Positions 35,845 to 50,892 of a DNA stretch of 62,698 bases are shown here, piece after piece. Source of the stretch: Candidatus Atribacteria bacterium. GTDB lineage: Bacteria > Atribacterota > Atribacteria > Atribacterales > Thermatribacteraceae. The translations under genes were made by a program, and so were the position numbers. A model generated the notes under the pieces. The model had not been told where the DNA came from, did no database searches, and worked only from the letters and a program-made list of their open reading frames with translations. Location: the NCBI GenBank assembly GCA_029982245.1, contig JARRBX010000002.1, forward strand, positions 1-62,698, read 5' to 3'. Every line of letters begins with the position of its first letter. Within the stretch, counting starts at the first letter, position 1.

Positions 35845-36684
35845 TCAATATTCCTCCGGAAGGTTACGCAAAAAGTCATATCTGAAAACCGGTCCTTCTT
35901 TACATACATAATAAGGACCAATGTTACAGCGACCACATTTCCCCAGACCACATTTCATCTTCATCTCCAAAGTAGTTATGATATCTTGAGGACGACATCC
36001 CATCTCAAGCAACGTCTTAATGGTAAATTTAATCATTATCGGAGGACCACAAACAATAGCAGTAGGTGGTCTATTCCTATCCAGCGGGACAGATGCCTGC
36101 AATATCTGAGGCACCAAACCTACTCTTCCTCCCCAGGATTCGTCTCCTTTATCCACCGTGACGATGAGTTCCACATCCTCTCTCTCCGACCACCTCTTAA
36201 GCTCCCACTTAAAAACCAGGTCTTGAGGGGTTCTGGCTCCATAGAGAATGGTAATCACGCCAAAACGAGAGCGATATTCAGGGTCAAGAACATAGTTTAT
36301 AAGTGACCTCAAAGGGGCCAAACCAATGCCGCCTCCAATAAAAAGCAGATTTTTCCCTTCCAACTCATTCACGGGGAAACCATTCCCATAAGGACCCCGG
36401 ATACCTATCTGACTCCCCGGAACCTGCTGGTGAAGAGCCTCGGTAACCAACCCGATTCTCTTAATACTAAACTCGATGACCCCCTTTTGAGTGGGGGAAG
36501 AAGTTATCGAAAAGGGTGCCTCACCTTTGCCAGGAAGAAAAACCTCTGCAAACTGACCCGGGAGGTATTCAAAGTGAAAATCATCTGGAATCTCCACTCG
36601 AAAGGTTTTAATATCAGGAGTTTCTGGAATAACCTCCCGTATAACACAGAGCCGAGGAAGATAAATATTTTGAAGTTTACTCAC
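35845..36684 (-). CDS. FAD/NAD(P)-binding oxidoreductase subunit (FlxA/AsrB/PyrK-like)
   Basis: 279 residues from GTG 36684, which overlaps the previous stop by 8 nt (GTGAGTAA); another GTG four codons earlier is crowded against GAGGTGG. The ferredoxin-NADP reductase fold shows the flavin motif APFSITSSP and the nucleotide motif GGGIGLAPLRSLI. A C-terminal cysteine set (CGLGKCGRCNIGPYYVC) probably binds a 2Fe-2S cluster. Such subunits move electrons between NAD(P)H and iron-sulfur partners in sulfhydrogenase, sulfite reductase AsrABC and FlxABCD-Hdr complexes. Here it is the likely NAD(P)H entry or exit point of the Hdr-like system. Confidence 0.8.
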   Translation of the reverse strand: MSKLQNIYLPRLCVIREVIPETPDIKTFRVEIPDDFHFEYLPGQFAEVFLPGKGEAPFSITSSPTQKGVIEFSIKRIGLVTEALHQQVPGSQIGIRGPYGNGFPVNELEGKNLLFIGGGIGLAPLRSLINYVLDPEYRSRFGVITILYGARTPQDLVFKWELKRWSEREDVELIVTVDKGDESWGGRVGLVPQILQASVPLDRNRPPTAIVCGPPIMIKFTIKTLLEMGCRPQDIITTLEMKMKCGLGKCGRCNIGPYYVCKEGPVFRYDFLRNLPEEY

Positions 36685-37675
36685 GCTTTTTGTCACCCAC
36701 CTCTTGCAACATTCCCCTAACCACTTCTCTGATGTCCCAGTTAACCGGACAAGCGGTCACACAAACCCCACAACCAACACACCCAAAACTACCCTCACGC
36801 ATTGGAAAATAGGAAAACTTATGGAGAACCCTCTGGCGCACTCTCTCGGTATAACCGGGACGTGGATTATGACCCGAAGCATGCAAGGTAAATTTAGGAA
36901 ACATACAGCTGTCCCAGCTACAAAGCTGATAACCCTTCAGCGCCCCATCCATCACAAGATCAAAACAATAACAGGTAGGGCATAGAAAAGTACAAGCTCC
37001 GCAGTTAAAGCACTTCCGAGCCAGTTTTTCCCATTTTTCGCTGTAAAAATTATCGTAAAGTCTCTCTGGAAAGTCCTCATTTATAACAAAAGGCTCTAAA
37101 AAAGATTCACTTCTTTTTCTTAACTTCTCAACCTCTTTCGATAACCCAGCACTTATCCCTTCATAAGTGAGTGGGAAAACATCAGCAGGATCCTCCAAAT
37201 ATAACCCTTCCTCCAGAGGCACCAGAAAGGGAGAATCATCAGTATGCCAAAAGGGTCCACCACCCACCCAGTTACAGAAACAGGTTACCTCGGGAGCAAG
37301 ACAGGCCACAATCACCAAACGAAGAGAACGACGATGTGAAAAATAGAGACCATCTGGAGGTTCTTTTCCAATAAAAATTCTGTCCAGAACATCCAAAACC
37401 GCTTTTGCCTCGCAAGGCAAGGCAAAAACCAAAGAGGGTAGCGATTCCTCCTCAACCGGCAAATCCTCCACAGACCATCCTTTTCTATTCCATAAGAAGC
37501 GACAAACTTTGCGCCATTGAGGATAAAAGGCTTCCTTCACAGTACGTATTTCTCTGTCCAGGCTTTTAAAGAGATCCGGATATTTGTTTTTCAGCCGCTG
37601 GGTAACCCATACCCTGTCCCTTTCATTCACAATCCATTCTCGAAACTTTTCCTGGTTCCAGTAACCCTTTCTCAT
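36677..37675 (-). CDS. 4Fe-4S dicluster protein (FlxB/AsrA/sulfhydrogenase beta-like)
   Basis: 332 residues. Two cysteine motifs are in the C-terminal third: CFNCGACTFLCPTCYCFD and CVGCGVCVTACPV. The CPTCYCFD form is typical of the sulfhydrogenase beta/AsrA group. The N-terminal half carries LVFALPCEAKAVLDVLDRIF, also found in that group. It has SD-like AAGGATA before its ATG and overlaps the FAD subunit gene. It is probably the electron relay between the FAD subunit and the MvhD/HdrA proteins. Confidence 0.8.
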   Translation of the reverse strand: MRKGYWNQEKFREWIVNERDRVWVTQRLKNKYPDLFKSLDREIRTVKEAFYPQWRKVCRFLWNRKGWSVEDLPVEEESLPSLVFALPCEAKAVLDVLDRIFIGKEPPDGLYFSHRRSLRLVIVACLAPEVTCFCNWVGGGPFWHTDDSPFLVPLEEGLYLEDPADVFPLTYEGISAGLSKEVEKLRKRSESFLEPFVINEDFPERLYDNFYSEKWEKLARKCFNCGACTFLCPTCYCFDLVMDGALKGYQLCSWDSCMFPKFTLHASGHNPRPGYTERVRQRVLHKFSYFPMREGSFGCVGCGVCVTACPVNWDIREVVRGMLQEVGDKKRE

Positions 37676-37688
37676 TATCCTTAACCCC

Positions 37689-38633
37689 TCACTTTATAAA
37701 TTCGTTAGGGTCATTTTCTTTGTAAGTAAGCAAGGGTGCTTTTTCTTCAAGGCTTAACCCTGCTTCAAAACCAAAATACTCCTTAACAATGCTCTCCACC
37801 TTAATAGTGAGAAGCGCAATGGGGATTCCTACCGGACAGGCTCGCTCGCAAGCTCCACACTCTACGCAACGACCAGCAAGGTGCATGGCACGGCCCATGT
37901 GGAAAACAAAATTGTCAGAGAAAGTTGGACAGGGAGTTGTCCAGCGAGGGTGGGTGCTTTCCACAAAACATTCGTTGCAGTAGCAAAGAGGGCAGGCTTC
38001 ACGACAAGCATAGCAGCGAATACAGGAGCTAAGCTCTCTGTAAAGCTCGTCAAAACGCTTTTCAGGACTTTTTGAATCCATTTCTTGCACATAATCCAAA
38101 CCAAATTTCTCCCAATTACTCTTGTCAAGAGGCTCGCCGACCAAGAAATCATAAAGAGGAGGGTTGGGATATCGGCAACGAAGACAGGTGTTTTCCATAA
38201 AATCCTGATAGTGATATTCCTTTCCCTCGATAACAAAACCCTCTTCCTTCCAAAAAACTGCATCATGGGAAAAGTTTCCCAGAGAATCCCACATCTTTCT
38301 CCAGTCCAAAATACCTCTGCATGGGACGCCAATGATTTTCAAGCGCTCACGCTCAAATTGCTCTTCCTGAAGAAGAACTATTAGCGACCGTGCATCACAG
38401 CCCTTAGCAACGATGCCCAATCTTTTATCACTTTTTTTATAACGCTGAAGATACCTGGAAAGGTTGACCGAACACAACGGATTAAAAATCATTTTTTCAA
38501 CATCCTGCAGCTCTTCAGCAAACAAAGGCGAAGTTCGGAAAGGAAGAGAACCCCACTGGTAACCGATAATCATATCCACTTCTTTCTCCGCAAGCAACCT
38601 GCGGGCAATTTCCCTTACCTCTTCAGAAAACAT
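37689..38633 (-). CDS. FrhB-like 4Fe-4S protein (FlxC-like)
   Basis: 314 residues. The N-terminal part has GIVAKGCDARSLIVLLQEEQ, a motif of the FrhB/FdhB-like iron-sulfur flavoproteins and their relatives. The C-terminal part has two cluster motifs, CIRCYACREACPLCYCNECF and CVECGACERACPVGIPI. The ATG follows AAAGGAG. It lies 3 nt after mvhD and 13 nt before the next iron-sulfur gene. The set mvhD, this gene, AsrA-like and AsrB-like parallels the four proteins of FlxABCD. Confidence 0.75.
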   Translation of the reverse strand: MFSEEVREIARRLLAEKEVDMIIGYQWGSLPFRTSPLFAEELQDVEKMIFNPLCSVNLSRYLQRYKKSDKRLGIVAKGCDARSLIVLLQEEQFERERLKIIGVPCRGILDWRKMWDSLGNFSHDAVFWKEEGFVIEGKEYHYQDFMENTCLRCRYPNPPLYDFLVGEPLDKSNWEKFGLDYVQEMDSKSPEKRFDELYRELSSCIRCYACREACPLCYCNECFVESTHPRWTTPCPTFSDNFVFHMGRAMHLAGRCVECGACERACPVGIPIALLTIKVESIVKEYFGFEAGLSLEEKAPLLTYKENDPNEFIK

Positions 38634-38636
38634 TGC

Positions 38637-39059
38637 TCAAAACTCCTTTACCAATCGGGATGCAGGACCAACCTTCTTAACGCTTTCCACCACTTCCTCT
38701 ACCACCTTAGAGAATTTCTGACCTTCAGAGGCTGAAACCCAGGAAAATTGCACTCTTTCCTCCTCGATGCCAAACCATTTGAGCATCTCCTTAAGAACCA
38801 GAAATTTCCTGCGTGCAAAATAATTGCCCCCAATATAGTGACAATCTCCTGGATGACAACCAGAAACCAGCACCCCATCTGCTCCTTCTCGTAAAGCCTT
38901 AAGAATATAAAGTGGATTAACTGCCCCCGAACAGGGAACTCTGATAACTCTAATATTGGGAGGATACTGAAAACGACTCACTCCCGCTAAATCAGCACCT
39001 GCATAGCTACACCAGTGGCAGAGAAAGGCCACTATTTTGGGTTCCCATCCTTCACTCAT
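38637..39059 (-). CDS. mvhD: MvhD/FlxD-type hydrogenase-associated iron-sulfur subunit
   Basis: 140 residues from ATG 39059, overlapping the giant HdrA stop by 8 nt (ATGAGTGA). MvhD carries a 2Fe-2S cluster and docks an electron donor onto HdrA. All family cysteines are present: FLCHWCSYAGADLAG (C14, C17), VPCSG (C43) and VSGCHPGDCHY (C68, C73). A longer reading that starts 41 codons upstream runs inside the HdrA gene in another frame. Directly next to HdrA, it is the expected bridge to the Flx-like module. Confidence 0.9.
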   Translation of the reverse strand: MSEGWEPKIVAFLCHWCSYAGADLAGVSRFQYPPNIRVIRVPCSGAVNPLYILKALREGADGVLVSGCHPGDCHYIGGNYFARRKFLVLKEMLKWFGIEEERVQFSWVSASEGQKFSKVVEEVVESVKKVGPASRLVKEF

Positions 39060-42000
39060 AAAGATATTCCACCTCCGCCATGACCTGCTCAGGAGCAAAG
39101 CCCTGAACTTTAATCGCACTGCTTTTGCAGGAAGCACTGCACAAACCACAACCTTTACAAAGAGCCAGGTTAACTTCGGCAACTTTTTTCTCAGGATTTA
39201 CTTTTACAGCACCAAACTGGCACAGCTTCTCACAGTCACCACAACCAGTACATTTCCGCTCCTCTACAAAAGCCACCTCAGCTTCAGAAGTAATTTGTTC
39301 TTTGCTCAACACAGTCATCATGCGAGAAACGGCTGCTTTAGCTTGCAGAACACATTCATGAGCAAACTTCGGGCTATGAGCCAGGCCACAAACAAAGATA
39401 CCATCAGTAGCGAAATCAACCGGTCGCAATTTCACATGGGCTTCCAGGAAAAACCCATCTTGGTTTAAAGGCACTTTCAGTTTTTTGGCAAGTTCCTGGT
39501 TTCCAACCTGGGGAACAACACCATTGGAGAGCACCACCAGGTCCGGAGCGAAAAGTACCTCCTCACCCAAAAGCGGAAGAAAAGCCTTAACAACAATTTT
39601 TTCTCCATCTACCAAAACCTGAGGAGGCTTATCGTCCTCAAAACGAGCAAAAACAATGCCCATTTCACGGGCTCTGCGGTAAAGCTCTTCCAGAAAACCA
39701 AAAGTCCGGATGTCCCGGTAAAGAATGAAAATCTCTATCTCGGGGTTCATTTCTTTCAATCGCAAAGCATTGCGAATAGCCCTCGAACAGCAGGTTCGGC
39801 TACACCAGGGGTGATCTGCGTTTCTGGAACCCACGCACTGGATCATCACTACCCTTGCAGGAGAGAAAGAACCCTTTTCAAGACTCTGCTCAAGTTCGGA
39901 TTGAAGTATAACCCGCGGGCTCAAGCCATAGCCAAATTCACCTTCTTGAGGAAGATACTCAAGACCCCCTGTGGCAACTATCACGGCACCATGCTTGATC
40001 CTTCTCTCGGTATCCTTGACCATAACCAGAGATTCAAAATTACCCACAAAACCATTCACTTCTACAACCCGGGTGTTTAGCAGCACTTCTATCTCTGGAT
40101 CTTCCAAAACCTTATTTTTGAGCTCATGAATCCTCTCAGTAATTTCTTCACCAAAGGGCGTCAACCAGCGTTCAAACCGGGCAACATAACCACCCAGTTC
40201 CGGCTCTTTTTCCACCAGAAAAACTTTTATTCCCTGCTTACGAGCCTCTAAAGCCGCAGTCATCCCGCTCAAGCCACCACCTATAATCAAAACCGCTTTT
40301 TCAACCGGAAGCAGAGCTGGTTGTAGGGGCCGTTTCAGAGAAACTTTGGCCACTGCCATAGAAACCAGTTCCTTGGCTTTCTCAGTAGCCATTTGAGGTG
40401 TCCTCTGATGCACCCAGGAACACTGGTCCCGAATGTTAGCCATTTCAAAAAGATAGGGGTTAAGACCTGCTTCTCGTAAGGTTTCCCTGAAAAGAGATTC
40501 GTGTGTTCTCGGAGAGCAGGAAGCTACCACTACTCGATTGATACCCAGTTCCATAATTTTTTGCTTCATTCGTTCCTGGGTATCCTGCGAGCATGTGTAT
40601 AGGTTCTCTTCAGCATAAACCACTCCGGGTAAATCTTTAGCCCAGTCAACCACTTCTTTTACGTTCACTACACCTCCAATATTAATGCCACAATGGCAAA
40701 CGAAAACTCCTATTCTCAGCGGCTCAATCTCTACGTTGCGCTCCGGGGGATATTGCTTGTAAGTAATTTCCGAAAAACGTGCTTCACTTAACAAAGAAGA
40801 AACATTACAACTTGCCGCACTTGCCTCAACCACAGTTTCAGGTATATCCTTAGGGCCTCCTGCTGTACCACAAACGAAAATGCCATCTCGCGCAGTTAGC
40901 GTTTTATCAAGTGGGTCAGTATATGGAAACCCGTTCTCTTGCAACGCTATCCCTGCTCTACGAAACATTTCCTGATTTAAAGGTGAGGCCTCAAAACCCA
41001 CCGAAAGAATTACCAAGTTAAAGATTTCCTCCTGAAGATGACCACTTTCGTCAACAAAGTAAACCCTCAAATCCCCGTTGTCGAGCTCCTCTACCTTGCC
41101 CACTTTGCTCCTTACAAAACGGATGCCTTCCTCTTTGGCACGTTCAAAGTAACGTTCAAAATCTTTTCCCGGCGAACGCATATCAATCATAAAAATGGTT
41201 ACATCCAGCTGTGAACCCTCAGCATCAGGTCTCTTTTCGGAGCCATGGACAACGGTGTTTACTCCACACCCACACACTGCTGCTTCTTCTCTTGCTTCAA
41301 TAAGCAGGTGTTCTCTGGCCACCAAAGCTTCCTTAATGGCATACATACAGCAAACAGCAGAGCAATAAGGTTTACCACGCTCCACGTCTCTCGAACCCAC
41401 GCACTGCACAAAAGCAATCTTGCGAGGTACCTTACCGTCTGAAGGACGAACCACCTTGCCCTGAGTGGGACCAGAAGCACTCAATATCCGCTCAAAGTCT
41501 AAACTGGTGATGACGTTAGCGAATTTTCGATATCCAAGCTCTCTATAGCGCTTTACAGGATCAAAAACCGAAGCACCGCTTGCGAAAACAACTGCACCAA
41601 CCGGAATCTCTAAAAGCTCTTCAGAGTCTTCATGTATAATTGCTTCCCGCTGGCAGGCAGCGACACATTGCATACACTCTGAACAACCACCGCAGGAAAG
41701 ACAGCGTCGAGCTTCTTCTTTGGCCTCTTCTTCGGTGTAACCCTTGACCACTTCATAAAATCCCCGGATTCTCTCCTGGGGACTCAGCTTTCTCATCCTG
41801 ACTCGAGGCTTCTTCGGCTCCCGCCAGGGTATGGTAATGGGAGCTTTGCGTTTTTCAAAACTTTGAAGTCCCCTTCCCTGAAGATAAGCATCAATGGCCT
41901 GAGCAGCTCTTTTTCCATGAGCAATGGCTTCAACCAGCGTAGCTGGACCAAGCACTGCATCACCTCCGGCAAAAACACCTTCAACGGAGGTTTGCATAGT

Positions 42001-43536
42001 TTCATCAACTTTGATAGTCCCCCAATTGGTGCGCTCTAAGCTCTTCTCGGGTATATCTACTCGCTGGCCAATGGCTACCAGGAAAAGGTCTGCTGTCACC
42101 TCATATACTACATCGGGCATGATTTCTGGTTTTCTTCTTCCTGAAGCGTCGGGAGCACACAAACGAACTGCATTGAACTCCAGCACCACTTTCCCGTTTC
42201 GTTTCACAAATCTCTTGGGTGCTGCGCAGAAGTAAAACTCTATTCCCTCTTCTATCGCTTCCTCTATTTCCTCCGCCCTCGCTGGCATTTCTTCTCGGGA
42301 ACGTCGGTAATAAATGGAAACTTTCTTAGCACCCTTACGCAAAGCAGAACGTGCGCAATCGATAGCCACGTTACCCCCACCAATAACCACGACCTCCTCA
42401 ACCAAAGGCACTTTTTGAGTGCTGTTGACTCTAACCAGATAATCAAGACCATCCATGACCTCAGGATAGTCTTCTCCATCGATACCCAGCTTCATAGTTT
42501 GCCAGGCTCCGCAGGCAATGTACAGGGCAGCATAATCCTCTTTGAAAAGGTCTTCAATCGTAAAATCTCTACCCCAGGCCTTGCCAAAAATAAACTGGAC
42601 TCCCAAGTCTTTTAAGATTTCAATTTCATATTGCACAACTTCGCGTGGTAAGCGATAGGGAGGTATACCGTAATGCATCATCCCCCCAGGCTGCTCTTTA
42701 GCTTCGTAAACACAGACTTGATAGCCCTCTCTGGCCAAAAAGTAAGCACAGCTGAGCCCGCTGGGACCAGCTCCAACAATCGCTACCTTTTTACCTTTGT
42801 TCTCTTTTTGGTTCGAAACAGGCTTTAAACCATTTTTAACCTCATAATCTGCTAAAAATCTCTTTAAGTAAGGAATGCCAATTGCTTCATCAAGCACGCT
42901 ACGCTGGCAGTCCTCCATACAGGGGTGATGGCAAGCTCGTCCGCAAATTCCAGGAAAAGGATTATCCATTCGCACTGTTTGCAAGGCATCTTCAAACCTT
43001 CCTTCTCGAATCAGTGCTACATAACCCTGGGCTTTCTGTTCCAGAGGACAAGCTGCCTGACAGTTGGGCAAACCTCGTTTTTCAATTGCAAAAGCACTGG
43101 GAAAAGCCTGAGGGAAAAGACGGTAAATGGCTTTTTTCTCACTCAAACCACCCTCAAATTCGTTCGGCAAATTCACCGGACAAACTCTTGCACAATCACC
43201 ACATCCAGTGCACTTTAAAGGGTCAATATAGCGAGGCTTGCGCCTGACCTTGACCCGAAAATCACCGGGTACCCCTTCAACGGACTCAAGGTTGGCACAG
43301 GAAATAACCTCTATGTTCAGGTGCCTACCGCAGTCAACGAGCTTTGGGGAGAGAATGCACATTGCACAGTCATTGGTTGGAAAGGTTTTATCTAACCTTG
43401 CCATAAGGCCTCCAATAGCGGTTGAATCCTCGACCAGATAAACCTTAAAGCCTGCATTAGCCAGGTCCAGTGCACTCTGAATGCCTGCTATGCCTCCTCC
43501 AACCACCATCACACTGCCTCGGCTTTTACCGTGCAT
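39052..43536 (-). CDS. Giant HdrA-GltD-HdrA fusion flavoprotein
   Basis: 1494 residues from ATG 43536 (GAGAGGG upstream; overlaps the hdrC-like stop by 11 nt). Order: HdrA-type FAD fold (GGGIAGIQ, 13-20; C57, C60, C69) with a ferredoxin motif (C109, C112, C115, C119); then a GltD/NfnB-like unit at about 155-560 with N-terminal cysteines (C159, C163, C198, C202, C206, C210), FAD loop GAGPSG (255-260) and NAD(P) loop GGGNVAIDCAR (386-396); six cysteines at 612-628; the rest of the first HdrA (to about 925); and a second HdrA unit (CHCGINIGG at 947-955, GGGLSG at 1086-1091, two 4Fe-4S sites C1429-C1439 and C1460-C1470). It could hold three flavins and several clusters. Probably the electron-splitting core of the neighbouring complex. 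Confidence 0.9.
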   Translation of the reverse strand: MHGKSRGSVMVVGGGIAGIQSALDLANAGFKVYLVEDSTAIGGLMARLDKTFPTNDCAMCILSPKLVDCGRHLNIEVISCANLESVEGVPGDFRVKVRRKPRYIDPLKCTGCGDCARVCPVNLPNEFEGGLSEKKAIYRLFPQAFPSAFAIEKRGLPNCQAACPLEQKAQGYVALIREGRFEDALQTVRMDNPFPGICGRACHHPCMEDCQRSVLDEAIGIPYLKRFLADYEVKNGLKPVSNQKENKGKKVAIVGAGPSGLSCAYFLAREGYQVCVYEAKEQPGGMMHYGIPPYRLPREVVQYEIEILKDLGVQFIFGKAWGRDFTIEDLFKEDYAALYIACGAWQTMKLGIDGEDYPEVMDGLDYLVRVNSTQKVPLVEEVVVIGGGNVAIDCARSALRKGAKKVSIYYRRSREEMPARAEEIEEAIEEGIEFYFCAAPKRFVKRNGKVVLEFNAVRLCAPDASGRRKPEIMPDVVYEVTADLFLVAIGQRVDIPEKSLERTNWGTIKVDETMQTSVEGVFAGGDAVLGPATLVEAIAHGKRAAQAIDAYLQGRGLQSFEKRKAPITIPWREPKKPRVRMRKLSPQERIRGFYEVVKGYTEEEAKEEARRCLSCGGCSECMQCVAACQREAIIHEDSEELLEIPVGAVVFASGASVFDPVKRYRELGYRKFANVITSLDFERILSASGPTQGKVVRPSDGKVPRKIAFVQCVGSRDVERGKPYCSAVCCMYAIKEALVAREHLLIEAREEAAVCGCGVNTVVHGSEKRPDAEGSQLDVTIFMIDMRSPGKDFERYFERAKEEGIRFVRSKVGKVEELDNGDLRVYFVDESGHLQEEIFNLVILSVGFEASPLNQEMFRRAGIALQENGFPYTDPLDKTLTARDGIFVCGTAGGPKDIPETVVEASAASCNVSSLLSEARFSEITYKQYPPERNVEIEPLRIGVFVCHCGINIGGVVNVKEVVDWAKDLPGVVYAEENLYTCSQDTQERMKQKIMELGINRVVVASCSPRTHESLFRETLREAGLNPYLFEMANIRDQCSWVHQRTPQMATEKAKELVSMAVAKVSLKRPLQPALLPVEKAVLIIGGGLSGMTAALEARKQGIKVFLVEKEPELGGYVARFERWLTPFGEEITERIHELKNKVLEDPEIEVLLNTRVVEVNGFVGNFESLVMVKDTERRIKHGAVIVATGGLEYLPQEGEFGYGLSPRVILQSELEQSLEKGSFSPARVVMIQCVGSRNADHPWCSRTCCSRAIRNALRLKEMNPEIEIFILYRDIRTFGFLEELYRRAREMGIVFARFEDDKPPQVLVDGEKIVVKAFLPLLGEEVLFAPDLVVLSNGVVPQVGNQELAKKLKVPLNQDGFFLEAHVKLRPVDFATDGIFVCGLAHSPKFAHECVLQAKAAVSRMMTVLSKEQITSEAEVAFVEERKCTGCGDCEKLCQFGAVKVNPEKKVAEVNLALCKGCGLCSASCKSSAIKVQGFAPEQVMAEVEYLYE

Positions 43537-44020
43537 TGCTACCCTCTCCTTCAACCCAACCCAGCTTGGCAATTTCTTCTCGATAAAACCTCTCGAACTC
43601 TTCCAGAGAATTGATGCCTTTGTTCCACAGATATTTGATAAGCGCTCGTCGCAGCTCTTGAGTCCTGCGGTCGACCTCGTCAACCACTTTTTTCCATTCT
43701 GCAGAAACGGTGCCCTCCTCTACAGCAAGCTCCCGCAGAACCTTCAAAAGATTGGTAAATTCAACATCCTGCGGGCAGTGGGCAGTGCAACGATAACAGC
43801 CTACACACAGCCATATGTATTCCGACTGCAAAAGCTCTTCCTGTTCACCAAGCAAAATCTGATGAATGATGCGGCGCGGATTGAAATCCCCCTCAACCTC
43901 GCTCACCGGACAACCCGCTGTACAAACTCCACAGGCAAAACAGGAAAGCAAACCTTCGCCCCCAGGGCGAGAAGCAACCCGATACTTGAACTGATAATCA
44001 AAAACTTTTGCCTCACTCAT
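43526..44020 (-). CDS. HdrC-like dicluster ferredoxin
   Basis: 164 residues. Two 4Fe-4S motifs: C27-x2-C30-x2-C33-x3-C37 and C72-x2-C75-x2-C78-x3-C82, in the LLSCFACGVCTAGCPV and YIWLCVGCYRCTAHCPQDVEF contexts typical of HdrC. The C-terminal 70 residues are charged and helical. It overlaps metF by 8 nt (ATGAGTGA) and the HdrA fusion by 11 nt. In methanogens and in the Moorella MetFV complex HdrC pairs with HdrB; no HdrB gene is found here, so its electron partner is open, with MetV-MetF the nearest candidate. Confidence 0.85.
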   Translation of the reverse strand: MSEAKVFDYQFKYRVASRPGGEGLLSCFACGVCTAGCPVSEVEGDFNPRRIIHQILLGEQEELLQSEYIWLCVGCYRCTAHCPQDVEFTNLLKVLRELAVEEGTVSAEWKKVVDEVDRRTQELRRALIKYLWNKGINSLEEFERFYREEIAKLGWVEGEGSNAR

Positions 44021-44939
44021 TTTCTCTTACCTCTCTTGGGGGTCTTGGATAGAGACCACACCTTTTTACAATTTCAGGAACAATGCTTTCCCAGGCAATA
44101 GCCATAATATGCACACCACTTACTCCCTCTATCTTTCGTACTTCGTTGATGATTTCCACACAAATCTTTATGCCTTCCTCCTTGGGGTCTCTGGCCTGGC
44201 GCATTCTTTCCAGGTAATAATCGGGTATTTCAAGCCCAGGTACTTCCTTTTTCATGTATTCCAGAGCCCGAACAGACTTAACGGGAATCACCCCAGCCAT
44301 AATAAAAGCCTTCTCATGTAAGCCCCACTCCCTCACTTCCTCCATCCATTTTGCAAACCTTTCCAGGTCAAAAATCGCTTGTGTTTGGATAAACTGAGCT
44401 CCAGCCTGAATCTTTTTGGCCAAACGCAACACCCTCAACTCAAGAGGGTCAGCGAAGGGGTTTGCCCCTGCTCCCAGAAAAGCTCTGATTTCTCCTTTGA
44501 TAGGTTCACCATTTTGAAAAACTTTCTGGTCACGCATGTTTTTCAAAATTTGCAAAAGCTGTATTGAATCCACATCAAAAACGTTTTTCGCTTGAGGGTG
44601 ATTTCCCATGCTCTGATGGTCTCCGCTTAAACAGAGAAAATTCTCTATCCCCAGCGCACAAGCCCCCAGGAAATCACTTTGTAAAGCAATCCGGTTCCTG
44701 TCTCGACACACCATCTGCATGACCGGCTCCACTTTCTGGCGGGAAACAATCAGGCAACTGGCAAAGCTTGACATCCGCACAATGGCAGTTTGATTATCAG
44801 TTACATTCACCGCGTCAACAAAGTCCCTTACCTGTTCACATTTCCTGGTAATTACCGAGGAATCATTGCTTTTGGGCGGTCCAATTTCACAGGTAACCGC
44901 AAAATGACCCTCCTGAAGCACTCTCTGTAACCAGCTCAC
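44013..44939 (-). CDS. metF: Methylenetetrahydrofolate reductase MetF
   Basis: 308 residues from GTG 44939, overlapping the metV stop as GTGA. MetF reduces 5,10-methylene-THF to 5-methyl-THF using FAD. Family features: TCEIGPPKSND (position of the catalytic glutamate), VNVTDNQTAIVRMS, FLCLSGDH, GAQFIQTQAIFDLERF and IMAGVIPV. It is the MetV-dependent kind, as in Moorella, where the enzyme does not use NADH alone but works with Hdr-type subunits. It lies between metV and the hdrC-like gene. A longer reading that starts at 44996 runs inside metV and is rejected. Confidence 0.93.
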   Translation of the reverse strand: MSWLQRVLQEGHFAVTCEIGPPKSNDSSVITRKCEQVRDFVDAVNVTDNQTAIVRMSSFASCLIVSRQKVEPVMQMVCRDRNRIALQSDFLGACALGIENFLCLSGDHQSMGNHPQAKNVFDVDSIQLLQILKNMRDQKVFQNGEPIKGEIRAFLGAGANPFADPLELRVLRLAKKIQAGAQFIQTQAIFDLERFAKWMEEVREWGLHEKAFIMAGVIPVKSVRALEYMKKEVPGLEIPDYYLERMRQARDPKEEGIKICVEIINEVRKIEGVSGVHIMAIAWESIVPEIVKRCGLYPRPPREVRENE

Positions 44940-45586
44940 AGTCTGACATCCTCTCTTACCATTTTGCGATGTCCACCATACCTCGAATATGACCAATCCT
45001 TGGGGGGCTCAATCCGCAAAAGCTCTTCCACCCTGCCCAAAGACTTAAATTTCTCAAAAATAAGCTGCCAGGCACAATCGCGTTCCGGTCTTACTTCGCA
45101 CTTTCCACCCTTGGAACCACCACAGGGACCATTTAAAAGGCTTTTTGCACAGCGCGTCACCGGACAGATACCTCCAAAAAGGTGGAGCAGACAATCACCA
45201 CAACCGGCACAACGTTCCTCCCACAAACCTTGTTCGACGGGCAAACCCATGAATGTGGTGTTTAAAGCAGGATAAACCATTTTCTGGGAATAGAGCTCTG
45301 CCAGAGCTTGTACTCCCACTCCACAGGCCAGAGAAAGAACTGCTTCTGCCTTTTCGACTTCCTCTCCAACCAGTCTGTTGAACTCTACCTCGCACTGTCT
45401 CTCCACCGTAGCACTCCAGGCCTCAAAGCCTTTAAGTCTCAGCAGGGCAGCAAGTTCTTTAGCCTCTTTTTCGCCACCCGACATACAAACAGCAACACAG
45501 GTCCCACAACCCAGAACCAGAACTCTCTTAAAGCCATCTAAAAGCTTCAATATCTCAGGAAGGGGTTTTCTTTCACCAACAATCAT
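44936..45586 (-). CDS. metV: MetV, zinc-binding partner of MetF
   Basis: 216 residues. The C-terminal cysteine-rich block (about residues 125-175: [20 protein letters not shown], then NGPCGGSKGGKCEV and DCAWQ) is the methylene-THF reductase C-terminal domain signature. The N-terminal half (VLVLGCGTCVAVC, CGVGVQALAE) has further cysteines. In acetogens MetV forms a tight complex with MetF and passes electrons to its FAD. ATGA overlap with the upstream MvhD-like gene and GTGA overlap with metF imply coupled translation. Confidence 0.92.
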   Translation of the reverse strand: MIVGERKPLPEILKLLDGFKRVLVLGCGTCVAVCMSGGEKEAKELAALLRLKGFEAWSATVERQCEVEFNRLVGEEVEKAEAVLSLACGVGVQALAELYSQKMVYPALNTTFMGLPVEQGLWEERCAGCGDCLLHLFGGICPVTRCAKSLLNGPCGGSKGGKCEVRPERDCAWQLIFEKFKSLGRVEELLRIEPPKDWSYSRYGGHRKMVREDVRL

Positions 45587-45969
45587 TGTTTGTCTGACCC
45601 TCCAAAAAAGGTAGATATCTCGGTAAGCGCCCGCCGCACTTCACCGATCTTATCAGGAGTGACTAAAGCCAGAACCACCTTCTTGTAAATCTGCGCTTCC
45701 TCAAGCAGGGCATTGGCTCTTAATGTCCTGCGCAAGGCTATATCACTGCCCCGTATGTTCTTACAAGCATCCAGCGGACAACCAGCGAGCAACAAAGCAT
45801 CGACGTCCTCTCCCAGGATAGTAAAAAGTGTCTCCTCCTTGATAAAACCCAAACAGGGAATTGTAGAAAGCTCCTTCAACTCCCAGCCTGATGGCAAGGA
45901 AGCGTTCTCGAAATAGCGCAAAAGCGCTGGATACCCGTTCCTTTCGCAACCAAGAGCTACCAGCTTCAT
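45583..45969 (-). CDS. Short MvhD-like protein with one missing cysteine
   Basis: 128 residues from ATG 45969 (GAGG upstream). It keeps the MvhD layout: LVALGCERNGYPALL, STIPCLGF, LLLAGCPLDACKN. Cysteines C8, C39, C64 and C69 match C14, C43, C68 and C73 of the neighbouring MvhD. The second cysteine of the N-terminal CxxC is replaced by N11. Four cysteines could still hold a 2Fe-2S cluster. It lies directly before metV with a 4-nt overlap, so it probably links MetVF to the HdrA-like proteins encoded just upstream. Confidence 0.7.
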   Translation of the reverse strand: MKLVALGCERNGYPALLRYFENASLPSGWELKELSTIPCLGFIKEETLFTILGEDVDALLLAGCPLDACKNIRGSDIALRRTLRANALLEEAQIYKKVVLALVTPDKIGEVRRALTEISTFFGGSDKQ

Positions 45970-45974
45970 ATCAA

Positions 45975-47390
45975 TCAACCTCGCCAACGAGGACCAAAGA
46001 TATACTGGCCGTTTTTGCAATCCAAGATTTCTATAGCACCGGCAGGACACAGAGAAGCACAAACACCGCATCCCTGACAGAGAGCCCAATCTATCATGGC
46101 TTTTTTGCGTTTACTTCTTCCTTCTATTTTCACGGCTCCAAACGGGCAGGAACGCAAACAGGTTAAACAAAGCACACATTTCTCTTCATCAACAGAACCA
46201 CGTTCTTTGAGTTTCAGTTGTGCTTTCTCCAGATATTGAGCCACCGAATGTGCCAGATATCTCCACTCTTTACCCGTCTCCTCCAAAGGAGCACAAAAAA
46301 CCCCTCTCCAGCAAGTGGAATACTTGTCGATCACCGGGTTAGGAGGCGAAACAACCCTTAAGCTTGCATAGTCAGTGATATATTCATCTAATGCCACAGG
46401 CTGAACCTCAAAAGAAGGCACAACAATAAGCCAGTCCACCACGCAAGAAACTTCACGTCGGTCCTTTTCTGCAATAAAGTTTAGAATAATTTGTTGCATG
46501 CTCTCGGTAGCCCGACAGGAAAGGTTCTCAAATCGAACTTTTTCAAAGCGGACTCCACTTTGCCTCGCTTCCCGATAAGCAAGCTCTGAATTCTCCAGTG
46601 CAACACCAACCTGTTCGCACAGAAAGAGCACTTCCGAACAAAAATCCCGGCGAATGCGAGTAGCCCAGGAAAAAGCCTCCCTCCACTGCTGGGGAGAAGC
46701 AAGTTCGTGCACCAGAAAGGCAACGTTCTTTTTCCAGAAATGACGATGGCTATACCTCTTCGATAATTCTTCTAAGAAGAATGCTCTTCCCGTATCCTCT
46801 ACCTCTTGGGGAAATGCAAAGGAAAGCGTTTTCCTTTCCGGCAAAAAAATTATCGCTCCGAAGCACGTCTCGCTATACGGAGAGTGGAGAAGCTTAAAAT
46901 TAATTCCCTCCCGATAAAGAGTTACCTTTTCTCTGCTCACAAAAAAGGGTATCCCTTTTTCGCGAAGGGCTCTTTCCACTCCTTCCGTGTTCTTATTTCC
47001 TTCAGCAACAATTAAAACTTTTTTCTCTGGCTTCAAAAGAACAGCCTTAACCGGAAAGGGGTATTCCAAAGCCAGTTCTTCCTGGAAATAATCTTTCCAG
47101 CGGGCAACCAACCGAGGTGAAGCCGCATCTTTCGGAATCCCAAAAATCCTAAACTGGCTAAGGTCTTCTGTTACCTCACAAAATTCGGACAATAGCTCAA
47201 GGTTGGATTCAATGTCGTCAACCAGCAAAAACACTTTTTCAAAGTTTTTAACATCAATCTTCCTCCCGGTTGACCACTCCGTCCAGGAAGAAATCCGTAA
47301 ATCTAACTCTTCTGAGAAAACACTGATAGCGTCCAGCAAAGGCTTCACGCGCTCGTATTCAGGACGAAATAATACAAGTATCTTTTTCAA
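45975..47390 (-). CDS. Degenerate HdrA-like protein retaining only its 4Fe-4S domain
   Basis: 471 residues, TTG start. The C-terminus has two intact cluster motifs (C405, C408, C411, C415; C438, C441, C444, C448). Residues 122-155 align with the FAD fold of the second HdrA unit in the giant fusion without gaps, but GGGLSG has become AEGNKN. The segment around 223-290 matches the HdrA stretch that normally contains QCVGSR and WCSRTCC, with all those cysteines lost. It appears to be an HdrA half whose flavin and active cysteines decayed while the ferredoxin part stayed. Likely a structural electron wire. Confidence 0.65.
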   Translation of the reverse strand: MKKILVLFRPEYERVKPLLDAISVFSEELDLRISSWTEWSTGRKIDVKNFEKVFLLVDDIESNLELLSEFCEVTEDLSQFRIFGIPKDAASPRLVARWKDYFQEELALEYPFPVKAVLLKPEKKVLIVAEGNKNTEGVERALREKGIPFFVSREKVTLYREGINFKLLHSPYSETCFGAIIFLPERKTLSFAFPQEVEDTGRAFFLEELSKRYSHRHFWKKNVAFLVHELASPQQWREAFSWATRIRRDFCSEVLFLCEQVGVALENSELAYREARQSGVRFEKVRFENLSCRATESMQQIILNFIAEKDRREVSCVVDWLIVVPSFEVQPVALDEYITDYASLRVVSPPNPVIDKYSTCWRGVFCAPLEETGKEWRYLAHSVAQYLEKAQLKLKERGSVDEEKCVLCLTCLRSCPFGAVKIEGRSKRKKAMIDWALCQGCGVCASLCPAGAIEILDCKNGQYIFGPRWRG

Positions 47391-47396
47391 TTCCCA

Positions 47397-48386
47397 TCAT
47401 CCCGCTATCTCAAGTATATTTTCCGCCACCTGACAAGCTTCAAAAATGGTAGTTTCCACATCTTTGGGGCCTCCCGCAGTGCCACATACAAAAACACCCG
47501 GGTTGCTGGTTCTACCTCCTCCAAAATTTCTAATAAACCCCCATTCATCGAGTTCAAGACCAAAAATCCGCGCCAAATTTTTGGTTGAACTCCCCGGAGA
47601 TAGACCTATGGAAAGGACCACCCGGTCAAATTTTTCCTTAATTACCTTGGCACGCTCGTTTTCGTAGAAAACCTCCAAACTTCCATTTTCACCTTCCACC
47701 CTGAAAGGTATGGAGCGTATCAACGACACCTTATTACGTGCTACTTCCCAGAGATAATCACTTTTGGCGCCAAAAATCTGGAGGTCCATATAAAACATTG
47801 TGAACTCAAGACCTGGCAAAAAGTAACGCAAAAAATCAAGGGCCCTCAGAGCATAACGGCAACAAATCTGCGAACAGTAACCTCGTTTTTCTTTAAAATT
47901 GCGCGAACCAACACACTGTATAAAGGCCACTCTACCCTGTGGTGGAAAGAGTTCAAATACCCTGCCATCATTCATACTGCGTTCAACATCCAGACCGGAA
48001 AGAACACCTTCCAACCTACCATAACCCAGGCTGGGTACCTTTCGGGCATCAAAAGGTTCCGCCCCCGAAGCGATAACGACATATTTAGCCCTTATCTCTT
48101 CGCAATTGGTGGCAACCTGAAACCCTGCATCAAAGCGGGTCACTTTTAAGATATCCCTGGGGTAGAGCACCAGAGACCGCAAATCCCCAATCTGTCTGCT
48201 CAAATCTACATTTCTGCAAATACCACAGTAAAGACATTGCTGGTGCGCTTTGCATCCCAGAGTAGCAGCCAGGCCTCCCACCGTGTCGTTTTTTTCAAGA
48301 AGCCGCACCCTGCCATAAGCACTGAGTTTTTTTCCTACAGCAAGACCTGCTGGTCCAGCGCCAACTATTAAAAAATCACACTCCAA
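47397..48386 (-). CDS. HdrA-like FAD protein, short form
   Basis: 329 residues, TTG start with TAGGAG upstream. It has the FAD loop VGAGPAG (8-14), an HdrA-type cysteine set (C45, C51, C54, C57), the FIQCVGSRN segment with C158, then GYCSQICCRYAL (C171, C175, C176), and the C-terminal GVFVCGTAGGPKDVETTIFEA flavin-closing motif. Unlike complete HdrA it has no ferredoxin domain; the next gene, separated by 6 nt, supplies one. The two probably form a split two-subunit HdrA equivalent that serves MetVF. Confidence 0.8.
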   Translation of the reverse strand: MECDFLIVGAGPAGLAVGKKLSAYGRVRLLEKNDTVGGLAATLGCKAHQQCLYCGICRNVDLSRQIGDLRSLVLYPRDILKVTRFDAGFQVATNCEEIRAKYVVIASGAEPFDARKVPSLGYGRLEGVLSGLDVERSMNDGRVFELFPPQGRVAFIQCVGSRNFKEKRGYCSQICCRYALRALDFLRYFLPGLEFTMFYMDLQIFGAKSDYLWEVARNKVSLIRSIPFRVEGENGSLEVFYENERAKVIKEKFDRVVLSIGLSPGSSTKNLARIFGLELDEWGFIRNFGGGRTSNPGVFVCGTAGGPKDVETTIFEACQVAENILEIAG

Positions 48387-48434: not shown

Positions 48435-48463
48435 AATATAACATCGCTAAAATAAACCGACAA
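48435..48463 (-). promoter_or_regulatory. Candidate promoter for the HdrA-MetVF cluster
   Basis: On the minus strand TTGTCG (48463-48458), 17 nt, TATATT (48440-48435). It overlaps the fhs stop codon. Predicted start is near 48428, giving a leader of about 42 nt before the TTG start at 48386. The match is 4 and 5 of 6 to consensus. It would allow separate control of the electron-transfer cluster from fhs. Confidence 0.4.
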
Positions 48464-50141
48464 CTCTGCCTTCAGAGTCAATATCTACATTCATGCCTGC
48501 TGGTCGAGAAGGCAGTCCGGGCATGGTACGCATCTCACCACAAAGAGGATAAAGAAAACCTGCTCCAATGGAAGGCCGGATATCCTTGATGGGAAGTTTA
48601 AAACCACGCGGACGACCTTTAAGCTTTGGATCATGCGAGAGAGAAAGATGGGTCTTGGCCATGCAGATAGGCAATTTATCCCAACCCAATTCCGTATACC
48701 GAGCTATCTTTTTCTCGGCTTCCGGTTCATAAACCACACCATCTGCACCGTATATCTTGGTAGCTATGATTTCAATTTTATCTTTGATTGGTATATCCAG
48801 AGGATAAAGAAAATCGAAGTTACTCGGTACATCACAGGCTTCTACTACTGCCTCGGCAAGTTCCTTGCCCCCTTCTCCACCTTTGGCCCAAACTTCGGAA
48901 ACACAGGCTCTGAAGGCTCCGTTATCAAGGGCTATCTTCTTAACCGTCTCTATCTCGCGTTCAGTATCTGTTGAAAAGACGTTGATGGCCACTACAACCG
49001 GGACGCCAAATAGCCTTGCATTTTCAATTTGTTTGATAAGGTTCTCCGATCCTTTCACCAGGGCATCGATGTCTTCTTCCAGAATTCCTGGATCCAGAGG
49101 TTTTCCAGGAATCACTTTGTATTTGCCGCTGTGCATCTTGAGGGCACGAATGGAACACACCATAACTACGCAATCAGGGCGCAGACCACTGTAGCGACAC
49201 TTGATATTCATGAACTTTTCCATTCCACAATCCGCACCAAAGCCACTCTCGGTAACTACATAATCAGCAAGACGCAGAGCAATCTGATCAGCAACGATAG
49301 AGCTGTTGCCATGGGCTATGTTGGCAAAAGGCCCTGCATGGACAAAACAGGGAGTATTTTCCAGAGTTTGCAAAAGATTTGGCTTGATAGCGTCTCTCAT
49401 CAAGACCGTCATAGCACCAGCACATCTGAGATCTTCGGCAGTAACTGGCTCCTTGCGTTCGTTATAGGCTACTACAATTCTGCCCAGGCGCTTGCGCAAA
49501 TCAAAAATATCAGTAGTCAGGGCCAGAATGGCCATTACCTCAGAAGCCACTGCAATATCAAAGCTACTTTCTCGCGGTATCCCATTCGTTTTGCCACCCA
49601 AACCTACAATAATCTTACGGAGCGCCCGATCGCTTATATCCACTACCCGGGGCCAGCTTATAGTGAAAGGATCAATGTTCAGCTCATTCCCGTGAAGCAA
49701 ATGATTGTCAATAAAAGCAGCCAGCAAATTGTGTGCCGCGGCAACGGCGTGGGTATCCCCAGTTAGATGAAGGTTGAAATCCTCCATAGGCACAACCTGG
49801 GAATAACCACCGCCAGCAGCGCCTCCCTTGATGCCAAAGACTGGACCCAGTGAAGGTTGCCGGATGCAGACGATGCTTTTTTTGCCAATTTTATTCAGGG
49901 CCATGGAAAGGCCTATGGTGGTAACTGTCTTTCCCTCACCGAGAGGTGTGGGTGTTATGGCAGTTACATCAATATATTTGCCAAGCGGCCTATCTTTAAG
50001 TTTTTTAAGCACTTCCAGAGATACCTTTGCTTTGTATTTGCCATAAAGCTCAATGTCATCCTCTTCAATCCCCGCTTCCCTGGCAATTTCAACGATGGGT
50101 TTCATCGAAGCCTGCTGGGCAATTTCCAAGTCACTTAACAT
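48447..50141 (-). CDS. fhs: Formate--tetrahydrofolate ligase
   Basis: 564 residues. It activates formate with ATP to 10-formyl-THF, the first folate step of the Wood-Ljungdahl methyl branch; it can also run in reverse. Visible are the P-loop [47 protein letters not shown] (shown by its two halves) and [16 protein letters not shown]. The ATG follows GGGAGGG. It lies between the corrinoid protein gene and the HdrA-MetVF cluster. The 109-nt gap to the corrinoid gene is AT-rich; I see no clear promoter in it. Confidence 0.96.
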
Positions 50142-50250: not shown

Positions 50251-50892
50251 TCAGTTTAAACCTAAAAGTTCCTTCGCTTTGTCAACTGCCGATGCAGCAT
50301 CCGGTGCATACCCATCAGCACCAACCTCGTCAGCAAATTTCTGGGTAACCGGTGCACCACCAACCATAACCTTAACCTGGTCCCTTACTCCGGCTTCCTG
50401 AAAGGCTTTCAGATTTTCTCGAATTTGAATCATAGTGGTGGTGAGTAGAGCTGACATACCAACCAGTTGAGGTTTGTGCTCTTTGATAGCCTGGATGAAC
50501 TTTTCAGCGGGAACATCGATGCCCAGATCGATAACCTCAAATCCTGCACCTTCCATCATCATAGCTACCAGGTTCTTGCCGATATCATGTAAGTCTCCTT
50601 TGACGGTGCCAATCACAAATCTGGCTACTGGCTCAACGCCGGTCTCTGCAAGTTTGGGCTTCAAAACTTCCATGCCTGCTTTCATGGCTCGAGCAGCAAT
50701 TAACACTTCTGGAACATAAATCTCGTTGGCTTTGAACTTTTCTCCTACCTGGTTCATGCCCTTTATTAAGCCACCATTGAGAACCTCTTGAGGAGAAAAA
50801 CCTTCATCAAGCGCTTTCTGGGTTAGTTCGCTCACTGCCTTCGCATTACCTGCAAACAATTCCTTGGCAATTTGGTCAAGAATGTCACTCAT
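50251..50892 (-). CDS. Corrinoid (B12-binding) methyltransferase protein, MtbC/MtgC-like
   Basis: 213 residues. A helical cap (about residues 1-85, GLIKGMNQVGEKFKANEIYV and VPEVLIAARAMKAG) precedes the Rossmann B12 domain with the lower-ligand motif GDLHDIGKN, LLTTTM and VMVGGAPVTQ, the latter two typical of this group. Such proteins shuttle a methyl group between a substrate-specific methyltransferase and a THF- or CoM-dependent one. The ATG follows GGGAGGGCAAAAGAGG. The likely methyl partner in this window is the methyltransferase at 33704-34507; no substrate-side MttB- or MtmB-type gene is here. Confidence 0.92.
   Translation of the reverse strand: MSDILDQIAKELFAGNAKAVSELTQKALDEGFSPQEVLNGGLIKGMNQVGEKFKANEIYVPEVLIAARAMKAGMEVLKPKLAETGVEPVARFVIGTVKGDLHDIGKNLVAMMMEGAGFEVIDLGIDVPAEKFIQAIKEHKPQLVGMSALLTTTMIQIRENLKAFQEAGVRDQVKVMVGGAPVTQKFADEVGADGYAPDAASAVDKAKELLGLN

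Follow-up and report, generated by a model that had tools for sequence, protein, structure and literature searches.

The window analysed here, a stretch of 62,698 nucleotides from a Candidatus Atribacteria bacterium, contains a tightly packed, divergently flanked operon whose genes all lie on the reverse strand. The formate-THF ligase gene fhs (48447..50141; assigned from sequence and context, and a conserved neighbour) is directly upstream of a gene for a short HdrA-like flavoprotein of 329 aa (FP1; 47397..48386). Then follow the target of this study, designated HdrA' (45975..47390), an MvhD1/FlpD-like subunit (45583..45969; Pfam PF02662), MetV (44936..45586; PF12225), the methylene-THF reductase MetF (44013..44996) and a 164-aa HdrC-like 2x[4Fe-4S] subunit (43526..44020), the last two identified by Pfam/NCBIfam. 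The ATG at 45969 appears more likely to be the start of MvhD1 than the listed TTG at 46089. Downstream lie a 1543-aa HdrA fusion (39052..43683), in which HdrA unit 1, split by a GltD/NfnB-like insert, precedes a complete HdrA unit 2, and a second MvhD-like ORF (38637..39182, listed ORF bounds). Beyond these are two iron-sulfur proteins, a [4Fe-4S] protein (37689..38633) and an AsrA/HydB-like [4Fe-4S] protein (36677..37675), and then a HydG/AsrB-like FAD/NAD(P)H subunit (35845..36696), the likely entry point of NAD(P)H. Five genes of the Hdr-type methylene-THF reductase cluster, metV, metF, hdrA, hdrC and mvhD, lie together in one operon; none of the operon genes scanned gave an HdrB-type match. 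Atribacterota have a Moorella-type HdrA with a GltD/NfnB-like insert (39052-43683) beside both MetVF and a HydG/AsrB-like NAD(P)H subunit. An MtgC-like corrinoid protein, encoded directly upstream of fhs (50251-50892) and conserved across the order, suggests that methylated compounds enter the pathway.

HdrA' (471 aa, TTG start, no internal stops) consists of an N-terminal domain without conserved cysteines, a degenerate TrxR-like domain and a C-terminal 2x[4Fe-4S] ferredoxin; Pfam/NCBIfam recognise only the dicluster ferredoxin. An earlier note had read the protein as an HdrA half stripped of its FAD loop and other cysteine stretches but not of its C-terminal clusters, and the motifs agree. 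Residues 122-155 align without gaps with HdrA unit 2 of the fusion (EKKVLIVAEGNKNTEGVERALREKGIPFFVSRE versus EKAVLIIGGGLSGMTAALEARKQGIKVFLVEKE), placing AEGNKN (residues 129-134; 46989..47006, reverse strand) at the position of the FAD loop GGGLSG, and the QCVGSR and WCSRTCC (CxxxCC) stretches of HdrA are replaced. The ferredoxin (residues 400-455; 46026..46193, reverse strand) has all eight cysteines (C405, C408, C411, C415, C438, C441, C444 and C448), which are invariant in 18 sequences. Its first cluster carries the typical CxLCLTC, found only in HdrA' among the inspected loci, part of which were fetched by a scan that used this same stretch as its pattern. No cysteine before C405 is conserved in the alignment of 18 orthologues; therefore, the N-terminal cluster of HdrA has been lost in these proteins.

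The flavin motifs GxGxxG, ATG and GxFxxG are absent from all 17 near-full-length Atribacterota orthologues, as are QCVGSR and CxxxCC (17/17). The position of the ATG motif is occupied by LPE or VPE, an apparent ATG motif in one sequence (L040) being a spurious SVG match, and the spacing from the loop to this position is 48 to 57 residues versus approximately 103 in the HdrA fusion, a deletion of about 50 residues. HdrA' also has no conserved residues equivalent to the bifurcating E/K pair near flavin N5. Judging by these motifs, no recognisable flavin site is left in Atribacterota HdrA', which probably binds no FAD. Use of a non-canonical site for FAD or another nucleotide might be read from the strand-helix-strand frame that AlphaFold2 predicts for residues 125-152 and from R160, G162, G178, E308 and D310, which are among the invariant non-cysteine residues of the family; however, with all three motifs and the intervening residues gone, such binding is very improbable.

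In a BLASTP comparison with the fusion, the ferredoxin of the target matches with an E-value of 3e-11, and the non-ferredoxin segment reaches a non-significant 18.5 bits. Homology of this segment is established by profiles: the alignment of 18 orthologues, with the ferredoxin cut off, was compared by hhalign with a profile made from the HdrA units of the window and 29 diverse others, giving a score of 58.8, an E-value of 1e-6 and a probability of 91% (E 1e-4 with an earlier, shallow HdrA profile, improved by the 29 diverse units). The match is colinear over HdrA 62-454: it begins in the N-terminal domain, crosses the site of the former FAD loop and extends as far as the last TrxR-like strand. 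Forty column-shuffled target profiles scored 16.8 on average (SD 2.3, maximum 22), the reversed profile 16.6, and FP1 together with eight other families of the cluster 10.9 to 26. Taken by itself, the N-terminal domain gives no significant match (E 0.08), and its homology to HdrA stands only as part of the full-length alignment. An AlphaFold2 model built from the alignment has moderate confidence (pLDDT 75.7, pTM 0.61), and its best seven PDB matches are all methanogen HdrA (7bkd_A, E 5.7e-19, approximately 665 columns aligned), followed by sHdrA and thioredoxin reductases; an unrelated fold was not seen. Because the profile match and the PDB matches of the model coincide in HdrA, the whole target, and not just its ferredoxin, is HdrA-derived. 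The target is thus a former flavoprotein, as had been proposed; the proposal that it kept only its ferredoxin is correct for the ferredoxin and not for the word only, since the rest is retained in the model as an HdrA-type fold.

The adjacent FP1 contains the FAD loop and flavin motifs, QCVGSR and CxxxCC, as well as a CKAx5-6CxxCxxC motif of its own. It lacks the N-terminal domain and exactly the C-terminal ferredoxin that HdrA' keeps, such that the two proteins have complementary parts. The CKAx5-6CxxCxxC motif lies near the FAD site and is invariant in all lineages seen; it may form a self-contained cluster that replaces the N-terminal cluster of HdrA. In the bifurcation signature of FP1, the Glu is kept and the Lys is replaced by Arg in all 14 Atribacterota members (14/14). 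Bifurcation at FP1 is therefore doubtful and is not claimed here.

The target lies between the intact HdrA-like FP1 and the MvhD-like subunit followed by MetV, the gene order on which the earlier note had based a linking role, and this arrangement is conserved. Among 24 genomes of the window's order, 20 encode MetV, and the target adjoins the MvhD1-MetV genes in 19 of these 20, with FP1 on its far side wherever the contig extends that far (the loci of G023 and G017 run into contig ends). The twentieth genome (G016) has MetV and no visible HdrA'; because its contig ends approximately 0.5 kb beyond MetV, it is no counterexample to the linkage. In another genome (G015) the target is present and the contig stops before MetV. 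Both MetV and the target are absent from all 25 genomes examined from other Atribacterota orders. Outside the phylum, MetV occurs in 81 surveyed genomes, and FP1 together with HdrA' in only two of 80 loci inspected (L163 and L196; their kin occur in G386-G388, G394, G396 and G123).

Orthologues of the target share 26 to 36% identity across the order and evolve faster than MetV and MetF, as might be expected of a dying pseudogene. Nevertheless, all 17 near-full-length orthologues have intact open frames, and pairs from one genus or otherwise close give a dN/dS of 0.13 to 0.22, versus 0.03 to 0.10 for MetV, MetF and Fhs and 0.09 to 0.20 for FP1. Within the target, dN/dS is 0.06 to 0.09 for the ferredoxin (where dS is estimable), 0.12 to 0.18 for the FAD remnant and 0.19 to 0.28 for the N-terminal domain. 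By these ratios the gene is evolving fast and yet is constrained in every part by purifying selection; neither relaxed selection nor frameshifts were met in relatives. Together with the invariant cluster cysteines and the conserved synteny, this refutes the pseudogene explanation.

A scan of 85,000 species identified HdrA' in Fibrobacterota (L096), Verrucomicrobiota (L097), Spirochaetota (L098), Kiritimatiellota (L099 and L103) and Syntrophomonadaceae (L100), and also in L095. FP1 is near every one of them, as are metV and metF where contigs reach. L095-L099, L103, L163 and L196 have kept GxGxxG and GxFxxG and have lost QCVGSR and CxxxCC; all of them except L098 also keep the ATG motif, and L163 retains an N-terminal domain with cysteines. 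The Syntrophomonadaceae sequence has lost both the flavin motifs and QCVGSR, like Atribacterota. In the two Kiritimatiellota loci, FP1, HdrA' and an MvhD part form a single ORF of 917/918 aa; in L103, MetF comes next. One further HdrA' (G150) emerged from a survey of 386 genomes; G183, a candidate in the same survey, is an ordinary HdrA. The G150 gene encodes an HdrA'-MvhD fusion (L279 5681-7147) beside a Moorella-type HdrA fusion, and the genome has no PF12225 (MetV) match at the threshold used. In the G313 group (L163, L280-L282), FP1-HdrA'-MvhD-metV-metF has another metV-metF pair, distinct from its own, immediately upstream. The fused HdrA proteins of L173, L180 and L195 were rejected as ancestors of FP1-HdrA', their N-terminal parts being the cut-off end of Moorella-type fusions.

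In a first tree, HdrA', including that of Atribacterota, is split from HdrA and fusion unit 2 with a support of 100/100; in a second, with QmoB added and trait columns removed, the split sets it apart from these two and from QmoB as well (100/99). Atribacterota HdrA' form one clade in the two trees (100/99 and 100/100). Their grouping with L100 drops from 97/94 in the first tree to 48/77 in the second, and the L100 branch is very long, so that the flavin site may have been lost either once or twice. QmoB groups with HdrA and not with HdrA' (94/87), and thus is not the closest relative of HdrA'; its loss of QCVGSR is accordingly parallel. Two QmoB sequences (L276 3496-5736; L277 2907-5192) lack QCVGSR and CxxxCC and keep the FAD loop. 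The target is therefore not a decayed half of the fusion, as first suggested, because HdrA' is a separate lineage, and its representatives in other phyla occupy an equivalent place in the operon with their flavin motifs retained. By its sequence relationships, the target represents the flavin-less extreme of this HdrA lineage, which is paired with FP1 in the gene cluster of an Hdr-type methylene-THF reductase.

The reading we prefer, to which we assign a probability of roughly 0.65, is that the target, an HdrA paralogue without flavin, is functional and pairs with FP1 in an asymmetric heterodimer of the HdrA type, acting as an electron wire to MvhD1/MetVF and as a scaffold. We infer the heterodimer, its stoichiometry, the path and direction of electrons, the composition of the complex and the presence or absence of bifurcation at FP1 from the sequences; the wire or scaffold role put forward in the earlier note is plausible. 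FP1 would contribute the sole flavin of the pair and its own cluster cysteines, and HdrA' two C-terminal [4Fe-4S] clusters, while the dead TrxR-like domain of HdrA' would serve as the dimer scaffold. Because FP1 has no C-terminal ferredoxin and HdrA' no flavin site, electrons would most naturally use the HdrA' clusters to travel between the flavin of FP1 and MvhD1, which would connect them to MetV/MetF. HdrC and the Moorella-type HdrA fusion would belong with the pair to one larger complex, a methylene-THF reductase of the Hdr type. According to the published description of HdrA, FAD receives electrons from MvhD by way of the C-terminal ferredoxin, and HdrA proteins that occur in tandem with complementary losses have been proposed to form heterodimers (PMC9012536). 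Pull-downs in Sporomusa found contacts of HdrA with MetV and with MvhD (PMC9430772).

HdrA' might instead be a pure scaffold that only completes the dimer or docks MvhD/MetVF, its clusters being structural or off the electron path. Retention of the N-terminal and TrxR-like parts despite fast evolution and the lack of conserved cysteines outside the ferredoxin would fit this role; however, the ferredoxin, with its eight invariant cysteines, is by far the most constrained part of HdrA', and the pair has no other C-terminal dicluster domain, which makes a pure scaffold rather unlikely. It is unlikely, too, that HdrA' dimerises with or feeds the downstream HdrA fusion rather than FP1. The two genes do share an operon at every locus reaching far enough, and in L279, a short contig, HdrA' adjoins the fusion gene, but the fusion already contains two HdrA units, and in most loci the gene right next to HdrA' is that of FP1, with the two fused in Kiritimatiellota. 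Tentatively, the FP1-HdrA' heterodimer may be part of a methylene-THF reductase supercomplex built from two HdrA modules, in which the Moorella-type fusion would face NAD(P)H and a permanently asymmetric FP1-HdrA' with a single flavin would face MetVF. The pseudo-flavoprotein half might have arisen by stepwise loss, of QCVGSR/CC first and then of all flavin motifs, and could enforce one-way electron flow.

The MetVF-HdrABC-MvhD systems of Moorella thermoacetica and Sporomusa ovata (PMC9430772) share metV, metF, hdrC and mvhD with the window, along with a Moorella-type double HdrA that contains GltD; the Moorella HdrA is described as a 162.8-kDa protein with a GltD insert, which the downstream fusion matches. 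In contrast to them, the window has an extra FP1-HdrA'-MvhD1 module before metV, with an HdrA' devoid of flavin motifs, and no recognised HdrB among the operon genes scanned. The tandem or fused heterodimeric HdrA of ANME (PMC9012536) likewise combine two HdrA-type partners with complementary domain loss, but all are reported with FAD-interaction residues, unlike HdrA' of Atribacterota. QmoA/QmoB resemble the pair in comprising a short flavoprotein and a longer HdrA-like protein, after which comes an MvhD part, and QmoB also lacks QCVGSR; however, QmoB has no CxLCLTC and occurs with the membrane subunit QmoC, whereas the target neighbours MvhD, MetV, MetF and the HdrC-like subunit and is not beside QmoC. 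Methanogen HdrA (5odc, 7bkd, 8rvu) has the fold and C-terminal ferredoxin in common with the target, which differs in lacking a canonical FAD site, the N-terminal cluster cysteines and the inserted ferredoxin. A survey of 1,152 archaeal HdrA sequences defined classes by cluster and domain variation, with K409 or E356 missing in 15 to 22% of representatives. No earlier report of an HdrA-type subunit without a flavin site was found in the open-access literature searched.

In published surveys, HdrA paralogues vary in clusters and domains yet keep their FAD residues (the ANME set, PMC9012536), a pattern from which HdrA' departs. A flavin-site-less HdrA' under selection and relatives that are flavin-competent and take the same place in the operon together constitute a natural series. 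This series lets one ask which of its two flavins an HdrA dimer requires, and it bears on how electrons reach MetVF in the Hdr-type methylene-THF reductases of acetogens.
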